A DNA stretch of 64,000 nucleotides from Labia minor (lineage: Eukaryota > Arthropoda > Insecta > Dermaptera > Spongiphoridae), in assembly GCA_963082975.1 (NCBI GenBank), contig OY720346.1, positions 72,965,267 through 73,029,266 on the forward strand. Direction: 5' to 3'. Under the pieces are notes generated by a model, which saw only the letters and a program-made list of their open reading frames with translations, was not told where the DNA came from and did not search any database. Made by a program: the position numbers and the translations under genes. Of the stretch, positions 6,764 to 60,696 are shown piece after piece. How positions within the stretch are numbered: the first letter of the stretch is position 1; the number at the start of each line of letters is the position of its first letter.

Positions 6764-6771
6764 CTCTATAT

Positions 6772-7002
6772 CAGTGATTCTCAAACACTGTGCCGCGAGA
6801 TTATGAGGCTCTTAAACATTTCCGACTTTTTTTCTAAATTTTTTCAATATGGTTCTAAAAAACAAAAAAAAAAGGTAAACCGTTTTTGGGACCACTTTTT
6901 TCAATATGGTAAACATTTACACTTATCTTTTTCTTTAGGTGCCGCCAAATTTTTAAACCGTTAAAAGTGTGCCGCGGTAAAAAAAAAGGTTGAGAATCAC
7001 TG
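6772..7002 (+). mobile_element. hAT MITE (family hAT-F), copy 1, 231 bp
   Basis: Termini are CAGTGATTCTCAA and TTGAGAATCACTG, exact inverted repeats of 13 bp. The element is flanked by the 8-bp duplication CTCTATAT (6764-6771 and 7003-7010). Eight-bp duplications and CA...TG ends are hallmarks of hAT transposons. The interior repeats GTTCTAAAA / GGGACCACTTTTTT motifs and has no open frame. Two more copies lie at 16463-16750 and 60433-60696. Confidence 0.85.
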
Positions 7003-7010
7003 CTCTATAT

Positions 7011-7310
7011 CAGGGGTACTTAAACTGTGGGTCGCGACCCCCAAGGGGGGTCGCGAGACTACTGAAAGGGGGTCGTAAAGATCTGATACTTTTGAATCAT
7101 TATAAATAAAATTTTAAAATTATTAAATTATATATATGTGAAATAAATGGGTATGTATTCTTTAATCCTTATTTTATTTACATTGTAAAATAGTGCGATA
7201 TTACATCTACATCTACGGTTAATATATATTTCATTATATGGAGGAGGGGGTCGTTTAAAATTTCCTAAGCTTGAAGGGGGTCGCTATATAAAAAAGTTTA
7301 AGAAGCCCTG
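7011..7310 (+). mobile_element. hAT MITE (second family), 300 bp, abutting copy 1 of hAT-F
   Basis: Begins CAGGGGTACTTAAACTG and ends GTTTAAGAAGCCCTG, with GGGTCGCGACCCCC-type sequence inside each end. Flanked by CTCTATAT at 7003-7010 and 7311-7318. The left duplication is the same 8 bp that bounds the neighbouring hAT-F copy, so both elements used one target. No open frame. Confidence 0.85.
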
Positions 7311-7345
7311 CTCTATATTATACTATAATATACTAAAACAGCTAA

Positions 7346-7980
7346 AAAATAAGTTGACCCGTGGCCAGGTCTGAACCGACCGACAGTTTGAAATAAATGA
7401 ATTTCCAGCTACAGAAACAATTTCAAATAATTTTAATATATCTATTAATGTAATAAAAACAGATATGGATATAACATAAATATTTTTAATTTTATTTTAT
7501 TTATAATATATAAGTAGGAGCTGGCTGAGACGTCATGAATGGCTGGATGACGTCATATAATTTTAAATTAAGAAAAAAACTAATAAAGATGATTTTTCTC
7601 GAAGATAAAACAAATACAAAGTGAATGATTCGTGATAATATGTAAAAAATCTCCTCATGTGAAATTTGGTGTGAAAATAACCCTTTCCTTCCTATCGTCG
7701 ATCGCTAATACTACCACTTCCGGTTTCCGGATTTGCACCAAAAGTTGATCAATTCATCCCACTGATGCATTAAGTAAATATACCAAACTTCATCAAAATC
7801 GGTTCATCCGTTCAGGCTGTACACATCTATACGGACAGACGGACGGACAGACGGACAGACATCATGCTAAAAATACTTTTTTCTGTTTAGAAAATGCATG
7901 ATTTGTGGAGATATGTAAAAATCTCCACATGTGAAATTTGGTTTGAAAACAATACCTCCCTTACTATCGTCGGTCGGTAA
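7346..7980 (+). repeat. Family C repeat, copy 1 (left end and body)
   Basis: Starts with AAGTTGACCCGTGGCCAGG, then a CCGACCGAC block, a TGACGTCATATAATTTTA block, the pair CACTTCCGGTTTCC / CAAAAGTTGATCAATTCATC, a (GGACAGAC)n stretch at about 7835-7860, and CTCCCTTACTATCGTCGGTCGGTAA. Other copies show that the full element ends in an inverted version of the CTGTGGCCAGACACAG start; that right end is missing here. No coding capacity. Class unknown, with foldback-like structure. Confidence 0.7.
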
Positions 7981-8809: not shown

Positions 8810-9353
8810 GCTAAACAGATTTTGATAAAATTTGGTATATTTACCTAATGCACCAGTAGCATGAATTCATCAAGTATTTATTTTATATTCATCGTCAGAA
8901 ATTTTTCTCTTAAAATATAGTAGTAATTAATAATTGAGTAATTAAACTAAAAATACATAAGTTGACCTGTGGCCTAATTTCCAGCTACAGAAACAATTTC
9001 AAATAATTTTAATATATCTATTAATGCAATAAAAAACAGATACGGATATAACATAAATATTTTTAATTTTATTTTATTTATAATACATAAGTAGGACTTG
9101 GCTGTGACGCCATGAAGAGCTGGGTGACGTCATATAATTTTAAATTAAGAAAAAACTAAATGAAGATGATTTTCCCGAGGATAAAACCAATACAAAGTGC
9201 ATGATTTGTGGAGATATATAAAAAAAATTTCCTCTTGTGAAATTTGGTGTGAAAATAACCCTTCCCTTTCTATCTTCGATCGCTAATACTACCACTTCCG
9301 GTTTCAGGATTTGCACCAAAAGTTGATCAATTCATTATACTGATGCATTAAGT

Positions 9354-9390
<37 letters not shown>

Positions 9391-16462: not shown

Positions 16463-16750
16463 CAGTGATTCTTTAGGTTTTTTTTTACCTCGGCACACTT
16501 TTAACAGTTTAAAATTTTGGCGGTACACAAAGAAAAAAATAAGTGTTCCATATTAAAAAAAGTGGTCCCAAAAACGTTTTGCCTTTTTTTTTTAGAACTA
16601 AATTAAAAAAATTTAGAAAAAAAGTCGGAAATGTTTTAAGAACCTAGTCCCAAAAATGTTTTACTTTTTTTTTTGAACCCAATTGAAAAAAATTAGAAAA
16701 AAAAGTTTAAGAGCCTCGTAATCTCGCGGCACAGTGGTTGAGAATCACTG
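16463..16750 (-). mobile_element. hAT MITE (family hAT-F), copy 2, 288 bp
   Basis: Inverted copy bounded by CAGTGATTCT and GAGAATCACTG. Flanked by the 8-bp duplication AATTAACC (16455-16462 and 16751-16758). The interior carries a partial internal duplication of the GTCCCAAAAA / AAGTCGGAAATG region. No open frame. Confidence 0.85.
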
Positions 16751-31956: not shown

Positions 31957-32282
31957 AAGGGGTGGGCAACCCGCGGCCCGCGTGCACAAAAACTGCGGCC
32001 CGCGAACATATTTAAAATTTATATGATGGCCGGCCCTTATTCAAATGTTTTAATGATCTCCTTATTTAAAATATTGAGTTATTTCTAATGACATTCATTA
32101 CTAAAGTAAATAACATACCAAAAACATCATTTTTTGTCAATTCTGGTTATTTTATGATAAATTTTCTTCACCGTTTTCTGAAAACATAATTTTTATTTAC
32201 CTACAAAGCCAATGTTAATGACCCGCTTAAGTTTGGTTGTTTTCAATTTTGGCCCGCATTACAAAAAGGTTGCTCATCCCTG
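31957..32282 (+). mobile_element. hAT MITE, 326 bp, inside the mariner element
   Basis: Ends AAGGGGTGGGCAACC and GGTTGCTCATCCCTG are imperfect inverted repeats. Flanked by the exact 8-bp duplication GTCTACAT (31949-31956 and 32283-32290), which lies within the transposase codons. Interior has GCGGCCCGCG-type sequence and no open frame. Removing it rejoins the transposase reading frame region. Confidence 0.9.
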
Positions 32283-38900: not shown

Positions 38901-39294
38901 AACGCCTCGACAGATTTTACGGCCTAAATAAAAACTAAAGTTTATTTGATTTTTACAGAACCGCCAATGAAATTGTCATAAAATTTCAAATCTATCGACA
39001 GTAACACCCACACTAGCCAAACTTCTAGATATAAACTCATATATATATATATAATATCATATTACTTATAATCTTATAATTTAAGACATATTTTTATTAT
39101 TAATAATAATATATTTTTTACAATTCTTTTCTAAGTTTATATTGAGAGATGTGTAAATAATTAAATTAAATAAATTTAATAAAATTAACTAATTTAAAAG
39201 TATTGTATATCTAAAGTAAACATTCATAGTGACAAATTGAATTAATAGAGCAAATGTAGTTGTTGAATAATGAAAATATAGCTATTAATAAAAA

Positions 39295-41066
39295 TAAGTT
39301 GACCTGACACAGAAGCGACCGACGGTTTGAAATGAATTAATTTCCAGCTTCAGAAACAATTTCAAATAATTTTAATTTATCTATTAATGTAATAAAAATC
39401 AGATATGGATATAACATAAATATTTTTAATTTTATTTTATTTATAATATATAAGGAGGCGATGGCTGTCATGAAGGGCTGGGTGACGTCATATAATTTTA
39501 AATTAAGAAAAAACTAATGAAGATGATTTTTCCCGAGGATAAAACCAATACAAAGTGCAAAATATGAAAAAAATCTCCTCATGTGAAATTTGGTGTTAAA
39601 ATAACCCTTCACTTCCTATCGTTGATCGGTAATACTACCACTTCCGGTTTCCGGATATGTACCAAAAGTTGATCAATTCATCATATTGATGCATTAAGTA
39701 AATACACCAAATTTTATCAAAATCCGTTGAGCCGTTCAAGCTTTACACATCTATACGGTTGGACAGACGGACAGATATGATGCTAAAAATACTTTTTTCT
39801 GTTAATAAAATGCATGATTCGTGGAGATATGTAAAAATCTCCACATGTGAAATTTGGTGTGAAAACAATACCTCCCTTACTATCGTCAGTCGGTAAAAAT
39901 GAGCTGTAGCCAGGCACAAAACCGAACAACGATTTGAAATAAATTAATTTCTAAACAACATTTTTTATATATATATATGTATATAAAGTATCAAAAAAAA
40001 ATATTTTTAAAACTTGAATTAAAATGACTAAATTATATTATCTTTGTTTTTATTTTTAGTTTAATTATTCAATTATCAATTATTAATATATTTCAAGTCA
40101 AAAATTTCCGATAAGGAATATAAAATTAATACTTTGTAAACTAACACATCCGGTTTCCGGGTATATACCAAAAGTTAATAAATTCATGCTACTGATGAAT
40201 TAAGTAAATATACCAAATTTTATCAAAATCCGTTGAGCAGTTTGAATTGTACACTTCTAAACCCAACGGACAGACGGACAGACATCATGCTAAAAATACT
40301 TCTATCTGATAACAAAATGTATGATTTGTGGAGATATGTAAAAATCTTCTCATGTGACATTTGGTGTAAGAAGAATACCTTTCCTTCCTAACGTAAATAA
40401 AGATTTTCTGTCTAATATAAATATATACAATTATATAAGGATAGAATAAGTATATTCTCGTATAAAAAAGTTTTTATTATTTGAGGTTTAAATGTATTTG
40501 AGCAATAAAGATCATTTGTGCTAAGAATTAATAATCATCCATCATATTCTCAGACATTAATTTATTCCCTCATCCAAGAAACTCCATCATGGGAGATTCG
40601 AATCATTTTTGTTGGAGCACAACGAAGCAAATATTAAATGAACAACCGGCCTGTCTGTGCTTAGAATTTCGGAAATTATTCTAAATTTTCTTTTTATGGT
40701 TATTAGTTTCACTGAAATGCTATAATAGTTCACTGTTTTAATTCCCACATTTGTTTGTAAAAACATCTTTTCAAAAGGCAATCCATTCATTCATTGGTCA
40801 GGGAACGAGCTGCCTCGACGTAAATCAACCAAAATTGTAGTTTACAAAATATTAATTTTGTATTCATTGTCGGAAATTATTCACTTAAAATATAGTAGTA
40901 ATTAAACTAAAAATAAAAACCAAGATAATATAATTTAGACATTTTAATTCAACTTTGAAAAATATAATATATATATATATATATATATAAGTATTATAAT
41001 GTTATTTAGGAATTCATTTATTTGAAATCGTAGGTCGGTTCTGTGCCTGGCCACAACTCATTTGTT
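39295..41066 (+). repeat. Family C repeat, composite copy 3
   Basis: Left end AAGTTGACCTGACACAGAAG, body to CTATCGTCAGTCGGTAA (39895), then a second left-type end (GAGCTGTAGCCAGGCACAAA, 39899-39918) and another body to about 40395. After an interval holding the duplicated segment 40662-40832, an inverted right end (40857-41066) closes with CTGTGCCTGGCCACAAC. The GGACAGACGGACAGA microsatellite occurs in both bodies. No coding sequence. Confidence 0.6.
40662..40832 (+). repeat. Duplicated low-copy segment, copy 2
   Basis: Nearly identical to 9990-10158, from TTCGGAAATTATTCTAAATT to CTCGACGTAAATCAACC. Here it lies within the composite family C array. Confidence 0.75.
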
Positions 41067-43518: not shown

Positions 43519-44053
43519 CGAGATGTGTCTAAAAAGTTCGGTGAATGGTATGATAAAAACATAAAAGAGAATGTTAATTGTAAATACCTTTATTAACCTT
43601 CAAAATAGTCTCCACTAGGCACAACACACTTCTGACAACGTTTAACGCTTGAAAACTGTTGGAGAAGTCTCGATGTGGAATCGTTCTCAGAATAGCCGTC
43701 ACAACGTTCAGGCCGGCAATCCACAAGCAGGACAGCAGAAAACACTGAACATGTACGAGAGATGCTAACAAAAGATCGGCGATTGACTCTCTGACTAATA
43801 GCCGAAGAATTGGGTACTAACAAAGGCACAGTAAGTAGTGTTTTCGGGTGTCCTGCTTGTGGATTGCCGGCCTGAACGTTGTGACGGCTATTCTGAGAAC
43901 GATTCCACATCGAGACTTCCCCAACAGTTTTCAAGCGTTAAACGTTGTCAGAAGTGTGTTGTGGCTAGTGGAGAGTATTTTGAAGGTTAATAAAGGTATT
44001 TACAATTAACATTCTCTATTTATGTTTTTATCATACTATTCACCGAACTTTTT
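43519..44053. mobile_element. Foldback mariner derivative
   Basis: Left arm (43519 to about 43740) and right arm (about 43838-44053) are long near-perfect reverse complements (CAGGCCGGCAATCCACAAGC on the left, mirrored on the right). Each arm carries the transposase C-terminus: the right arm reads FSSVKRCQKCVV and then EYFEG with a stop, the left arm the same on the minus strand. The spacer reads HVREMLTKDRRLTL and LIAEELGTNKGTV, separated by one stop: the N-terminal helix-turn-helix of a mariner transposase. The whole central catalytic part is absent. Confidence 0.85.
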
Positions 44054-44700: not shown

Positions 44701-44807
44701 TTTCGTCTGATTTTTTTTTTAAAACCATATTGAAAAAATTTAAATATTTCCATAATTTGCGTTTGGGCCGCATCTCAAAGGGTTAGGTCGCAGTTTAGAC
44801 ACCCATG
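44701..44807. repeat. Solo hAT-like terminus
   Basis: AAAACCATATTGAAAAA-type interior and an end TTTAGACACCCATG, with TTTGGGCCGCATCTC inside. It resembles hAT MITE termini, without a partner end. Confidence 0.4.
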
Positions 44808-44815
44808 CTTTAGGT

Positions 44816-45253
44816 TAGTGATGGCGAACCTTTTTGAGAAGTGATTTTTGTCGTATTTTGATCATTATTTTTTTAGATCTAGCTCACTGGGTCACTAAGT
44901 ATATAATTGAAAAAGAAATAAAGAAAATCACATACAATATATATTTTGTATAAATATTTATAAATAATTAATAGGTATATCAGTGTTTCTCAACCTTTTA
45001 GTATTCACAGCCCAATTTTAAATCATAATTTTCATCGCGCCATATGAAAATATTTCAGAGCATCATCGCAAAATCATTTTTTTTTTAAAAAAACCATATT
45101 GAAAAAAAATTGAAAGAAAAATCGAAAATGTTCAAAAGATTGGCCACAAAATCATCTTAACTTTTTTTTTGACATAAAAAAATTTTATAAAAATCAAAGA
45201 GTTGGTCAATTAAAAAGCTTGGGTGGGTCAGTGTCTGAGGTTCGCCATCACTT
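44816..45253. mobile_element. hAT MITE, 438 bp, with 8-bp target duplication
   Basis: Ends TAGTGATGGCGAACC and GGTTCGCCATCACTT are near-perfect inverted repeats. Flanked by CTTTAGGT at 44808-44815 and 45254-45261. Inside, a CAGTGTTTCTCAACC end at about 44981 looks like a second hAT-type terminus, so another element may be nested. No open frame. Confidence 0.8.
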
Positions 45254-45521
45254 CTTTAGGTGATATATTGTAAAAATTCAGACAGGTGTTGTGTGATATA
45301 ATCATTAAATGAAATTAAAATATTTTCATATTAAAAAAATAATAGATCAAGTTAAATCTATGTTCTGATAAATAATTAATTTTAACATTTTATGATTTTT
45401 CAGAAAATTTATAAAAATGTTAACTTTTTTTTTCTTAAAAATCTTGTGCTATCATTGTGAAAATAAGAAATAATAATAAATTATATTATACAATATATGG
45501 TAATAGTTTATAAAATGTGAA

Positions 45522-60432: not shown

Positions 60433-60696
60433 CTGTGATTCTCAACCAATGTGACGCGAAATTATGAGGCTCTTAGACATTTCCGACTTTTTTCTAAATT
60501 TTTTCAATTTAGTTCTAAAAAAAAGTAAAACGGTTTTGGGACTAGGCTCTTAAGCATTTCCGACTTTCTAAATTTTTTCAATATGGGTCTAAAAAAAAGG
60601 GTAAACCGTTTTTGGGACCACTTTTTTCAAAATGATAAACTTTTACAATTATCATTTTCTTTGTGTGCCGCGGTAAAAAAAGGTTGAGAATCACTG
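60433..60696 (+). mobile_element. hAT MITE (family hAT-F), copy 3, 264 bp
   Basis: Ends CTGTGATTCTCAACC (first bases mutated from CAGTG) and GGTTGAGAATCACTG. Flanked by the 8-bp duplication TATTAAAC (60425-60432 and 60697-60704). The interior repeats the TTCCGACTTT / GGGAC units. No open frame. Confidence 0.85.

Follow-up and report, generated by a model that had tools for sequence, protein, structure and literature searches.

Two different hAT-type miniature elements, here called A and B, lie side by side in the window (the whole 64-kb stretch that was analysed), and the same octamer, CTCTATAT, stands before, between and after them in exact register with their ends. We consider the best reading to be a heterotypic double insertion of hAT elements through shared target preference, to which we assign a probability of roughly 85%. 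A and B would then be two different non-autonomous hAT elements that were inserted successively at one target. Insertion of a hAT element leaves the 8-bp target on either side of the element, so that the site is doubled and not lost; a later hAT element whose preferred target is likewise this palindromic motif (nTCTAGAn-like, TA being central) can then enter either copy, and this second insertion duplicates the octamer again to give the series target-element-target-element-target with zero bases between. For the window's own pair such a double insertion is inferred; either A or B may have been the earlier element, and one transposase or two may have been used. In this manner a hot site can survive an insertion and stay available to further transposon families, so that different elements can stack base-exactly, which bears on the origin of clusters and tandem repeats.

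Architecture of the A-B pair

The original prediction had CTCTATAT bounding two different elements exactly, and the three copies were confirmed at 6764-6771, 7003-7010 and 7311-7318 of the window (C4:72965267-73029266). Element A (6772-7002, plus strand, 231 bp, CAGTGATTCTCAAAC...GGTTGAGAATCACTG) lies between the first and second copies and has 15-bp inverted ends that agree at 14 of 15 positions. Element B (7011-7310, plus strand, 300 bp, CAGGGGTACTTAAAC...GTTTAAGAAGCCCTG) lies between the second copy, which is common to both elements, and the third, and its 15-bp ends agree at 13 of 15. hAT elements usually have short inverted ends of the form CAG...CTG. The ends of A and B are of this kind and each element is enclosed by the 8-bp target duplication that characterizes hAT insertions; both are also short, non-coding (there is no open reading frame of 150 amino acids there), bounded by inverted ends and repeated in many copies, as is characteristic of MITEs. 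A and B have only the general form of their ends in common. The subterminal GTGGGTCGCGACCC of B may be reminiscent of SPIN-like hAT elements. Parent elements of A and B were not found, and Rfam and tRNA scans of the 64-kb window gave no match.

Many copies of B, at 95-98% identity, were found by searching the rest of the assembly from which the window is drawn (604 Mb, 71 contigs). The window itself carries two more copies of A, one at 16463-16750 (minus strand, ends 11 of 15) between exact copies of AATTAACC and the other at 60433-60696 (plus strand, ends 14 of 15) between exact copies of TATTAAAC; TA is central in CTCTATAT, AATTAACC and TATTAAAC alike. The octamer CTCTATAT is itself common (4 occurrences in the window against 2.43 expected from shuffles), and the non-random feature is its exact register with two pairs of inverted ends. 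The window has 17 exact 8-bp repeats around inverted ends that agree at 13 or more of 15 positions, a count that takes in overlapping alignments and non-hAT repeats, and each of 10 dinucleotide shuffles has 0. A terminal-repeat scan of the window also returned 6772-7310 as a single element; in annotation, neighbours with one common duplication can pass for one composite element.

A second, one-sided pair lies farther along the window. It consists of a hAT-type element, D (44816-45253, minus strand), with CTTTAGGT on both sides (44808-44815 and 45254-45261) and ends that agree at 14 of 15 positions, and of a truncated element, E (44710-44807, minus strand), which starts directly at D's duplication and retains its first 98 bp. 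From base 1 over these 98 bp, E has 88% identity to the start of an intact element at L053:2125-2351. The far end of E and a third copy of CTTTAGGT were not found.

Several other features were observed in the window. A further A-like end, CAGTGTTTCTCAACC, for which no opposite end was found, is located within D at 44981 (plus strand), and a hAT-like element of 326 bp (31957-32282, ends 12 of 15) is flanked by the duplication GTCTACAT. An inverted repeat with 184-nt arms that are 97% complementary and separated by 90 nt occupies 43563-43746 and 43837-44020. A dispersed repeat is present at 7347-7980, 8975-9360 and 39288-39899, with 84-89% identity to the stretch after B in another locus, L002; its copy at 7347 starts 29 bp past the last CTCTATAT.

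Recurrence of B junctions in the genome

Both ends of B were read at 21 distinct loci (a count that leaves out overlapping loci as well as a second unit of the array), and the flanking octamers were identical in 19 of these and differed by one mismatch in 2. These loci are the best matches to a joined A-B query, so that pairs are over-represented among them. B stands alone at most loci read. Two B copies in opposite orientation, ~290 bp apart and with octamers that differ from one another (GTATATAC and CCTTAGAT), were seen at L007 (C10:4496237-4499556).

A gap test was applied across the genome, in which an intact B end had to be followed by CAGNG within 0-30 bp. It yielded 32 matches, of which 15 have a gap of exactly 8 bp and 17 are shared among the other 30 gap values (P 9e-17 by a Poisson test that takes the mean count per other gap as its expectation). 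The genome search for abutting pairs that had been proposed as a check thus returned 15 gap-8 junctions of B at different targets. Chance was considered as the origin and rejected: the octamer is common, yet the spike at gap 8 is not what chance would be expected to give. B ends with the same 16-mer total 624 with the copies of an array on C10 included (346 followed by A or T and 278 by C or G), and 15 of these 624 form gap-8 junctions. The window's A-B junction is absent from the 15, as one base of its B end is different.

The 15 reused octamers comprise 14 different sequences as read (GTATAGAG occurs twice), or 13 when reverse complements are merged. The far duplication of B is present in 11 of 14 loci, being exact in 10 and having one mismatch in L034, and it is exact in the array unit; that of the partner is present in 9 of the 15 gap-8 loci, where it is exact in seven (L040, L045, L051, L053, L054, L057 and L039/L062) and has one mismatch in L044 and two in L034. 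Three exact copies of the octamer are found in 6 of the 15 (L040, L045, L053, L054, L039/L062 and L057). In L047 both ends of the partner are present, yet the sequence on its far flank, CCTTATAT, is no match, and a matching far end of the partner was not found in L027, L029, L030, L033 and L048, where 1.5 kb were searched in four and the search in L029 went further out; these loci count against the reading as double insertion. The starts of the partners are diverse and mostly unlike B; that in L053 is B-like. In L054 an A-type partner stands inverted after B, opposite to the window arrangement. L062 has a partner of 2,696 bp whose ends agree at 13 of 14 positions, and PF05699, the hAT dimerisation region, was detected (E 1.8e-5) in one of its three adjacent open pieces; comparison of one transposase piece with solved structures gave no match at E 0.01.

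Filled and unfilled sites in a tandem array

A tandem, satellite-like array that carries MITE B extends over C10:60,531,011-60,609,717, with at least 19 B places that are mostly ~4.2 kb apart, and it constitutes a natural before/after sample. Three of its units (L010, L026 and L058) read ATCTATAG-B-ATCTATAG-catcatt, and the unit L057 reads ATCTATAG-B-ATCTATAG-(255 bp, CAGGGGTGGCCAAC...GTTGGCCGTACCTG)-ATCTATAG-catcatt. When L057 is compared with the three sister units, one flank is identical at 608 of 608 positions in every case, and the opposite flank is identical at 600/600, 600/600 and 598/600 positions. On the simplest reading, B came first in L057 and a hAT-like element of 255 bp then entered the right-hand duplication, doubling ATCTATAG. 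Among the loci read there was no other copy of the 255-bp element, except for a 58-bp partial match in L051/L060, and its family assignment is tentative. The filled and unfilled units of the array, together with the diverse partners and targets elsewhere, argue for sequential insertions and against a composite that moves.

Target motif and strength of the reused sites

TA is central in 94 of 100 listed B targets among the 346 with A or T next, in 95 of 100 listed among the 278 with C or G next, and in 95 of 100 listed A-type targets among the 4,105 A-type ends followed by A or T. The targets of both B and the A-type ends therefore agree with nnnTAnnn, the target consensus of the Buster group. 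Octamers were weighted from the listed B targets (100 of the 346 with A or T next, plus 95) against a dinucleotide background; the 95 represent the 100 listed of 278 with C or G next, minus five tandem rows, and the listed targets follow contig order (C1, C2 and part of C4).

The reused octamers have a median weight of 289 (n=15), as compared with 58 for those ordinary B targets that have C next (n=47; Mann-Whitney P 9e-5). The medians for ordinary B targets are 36 with A or T next (n=100) and 58 with C or G next (n=95). Draws of 15 C-followed targets in proportion to their weight gave a median of 372 (95% 130-736) and blind draws a median of 58 (26-130), for which the observed 289 has P 0.0008; the outcome was alike when B targets followed by A or T served as the control. 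Since the reused octamers are stronger than ordinary targets, reuse follows sequence strength. The suggestion in the original prediction that a duplicated hAT site is a preferred target holds up in this sense, that the strong targets are the ones reused. The weights were built on B's motif, and A-type targets score about alike by them. B ends are followed by C or G in 45% of cases (278 of 624), against a G+C content of 27% in the window, and B's preference may reach past the octamer in a way that suits an adjacent CAG. Extended palindromic target motifs, of 14 bp for hobo, are described in passages of PMC3276498.

Differences between hAT end types and alternative explanations

The original prediction did not foresee how much more frequently B occurs in pairs than do two other types of hAT end. 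The same gap test applied to A-type ends, of which 4,105 are followed by A or T, gave 191 matches, and among 100 of these that were listed the gap was 8 in 6, one of them the window itself, the other gaps averaging 3.1 (P 0.098). Ends of the type GGTTGGCCACCCCTG gave 15 matches in the test, with a gap of 8 in 0 of 15. The ratio of gap 8 to other gaps is thus 15:17 for B as compared with 6:94 for the 100 listed A-type matches (Fisher 6e-7) and 0:15 for the GGTTGGCCACCCCTG ends (Fisher 8e-4). An excess at gap 7 (6 of 100 listed A-type matches and 2 of 15 with GGTTGGCC ends) may be due to octamers with C as their last base. The motif is common to A-type and B targets, so preference alone does not predict the difference between B and the A-type. 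When the expected number of pairs is roughly estimated by hand from the motif weights and the 6 intact hATs in 64 kb, a base that is too small for hAT density, B pairs lie about fourfold above expectation and A-type pairs fourfold to eightfold below it; with 624 B ends and larger weights, B comes nearer to the estimate and the A-type falls further below.

These differences are what would be expected if B were specially drawn to hAT junctions, for example through a transposase that recognises other hAT ends or their flank, such as a C after the duplication, and the frequent C or G after B targets points the same way. We nevertheless regard this explanation as improbable: the reused octamers are much stronger motif matches, which an attraction blind to sequence does not predict, the partner ends are diverse, and B preceded its partner in the array case. 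Special attraction of B may add to plain motif preference. A related proposition, that B is attracted specifically to other hAT duplications beyond what motif and copy number provide and that one transposase can use the ends of different families, is likewise doubtful. The locus L002 (C6:7274127-7277559) bears on its second part. On the minus strand it reads TTCTACAG-A(291 bp)-CTCTACAG-(885 bp)-CTCTACAG, and the 885-bp element (minus strand, 1692-2576) has the 5' end of B, the repeat as at window 7347-7980 and an A-type 3' end. Flanked by exact octamers, this chimera of a B end and an A-type end is a hint that a single transposase might be able to pair ends from the two families; it could also stem from recombination or repair filling.

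A might also have entered this site in one homologous chromosome and B in the other, with recombination within the 8-bp duplication then joining them, a course of events that has the same end product as double insertion and likewise requires a preferred site; we hold it to be very unlikely, as the recombination must fall within 8 bp and the array case is a simple insertion. There is next to no chance that A-B is one composite element moving as a unit, as might be suggested by L002, where A is likewise followed by B in one orientation, since the middle octamer there is the same as the right outer one and one base off the left, unlike the window's CTCTATAT, and since other B pairs have other partners and B occurs alone at most loci read. 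That a site was reused, and not a joined pair spread, had been predicted at the outset, and it is borne out by the different partners and octamers of the other B pairs, by the opposite arrangement in L054 and by the comparison of L057 with its sister units. Dispersed copies of the joined pair would have spoken against it; the exact pattern of the A-B junction was found once, a count that is weak alone because the pattern includes a base private to the window's B.

Comparison with known systems

Heterotypic hAT pairs with one common duplication were not recognised in any report in a full-text literature search, most subscription journals being outside its range. Among known hAT elements, those of the Buster type, such as TcBuster, and the Drosophila MITE Mar resemble the present ones in having 8-bp duplications with the consensus nnnTAnnn and short non-coding relatives; the relevant passages contain no pairs that share one duplication, and the words 'tandem' and 'nested' are absent from the main text of the Mar paper (PMC3499496, PMC3517528). 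The clusters of Ac-mMITEs in pineapple are attributed, in the passages concerned, to adjacent independent insertions via target preference and do not move as units; those elements are Mutator-like and lie in (TA)n microsatellites, whereas here one 8-bp site is re-duplicated (PMC8449440).

The closest parallel is the double insertion of transposable elements in Drosophila (McGurk and Barbash 2018, Genome Res 28:714, as presented in passages of PMC12628747), in which the target duplication admits a further copy at the site, insertion-site preference is given as the main cause and hobo, itself a hAT, is reported to have reached 16 tandem copies. The principle is the same, and two copies share one target duplication in both systems. 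We accordingly file the principle as already known for same-element dimers and its operation between different hAT families as what is new here: the Drosophila dimers consist of the same element, as far as those passages (PMC12628747) describe them, whereas the present pairs join different hAT families and come with before/after units in an array and with a test of how strong the reused sites are.
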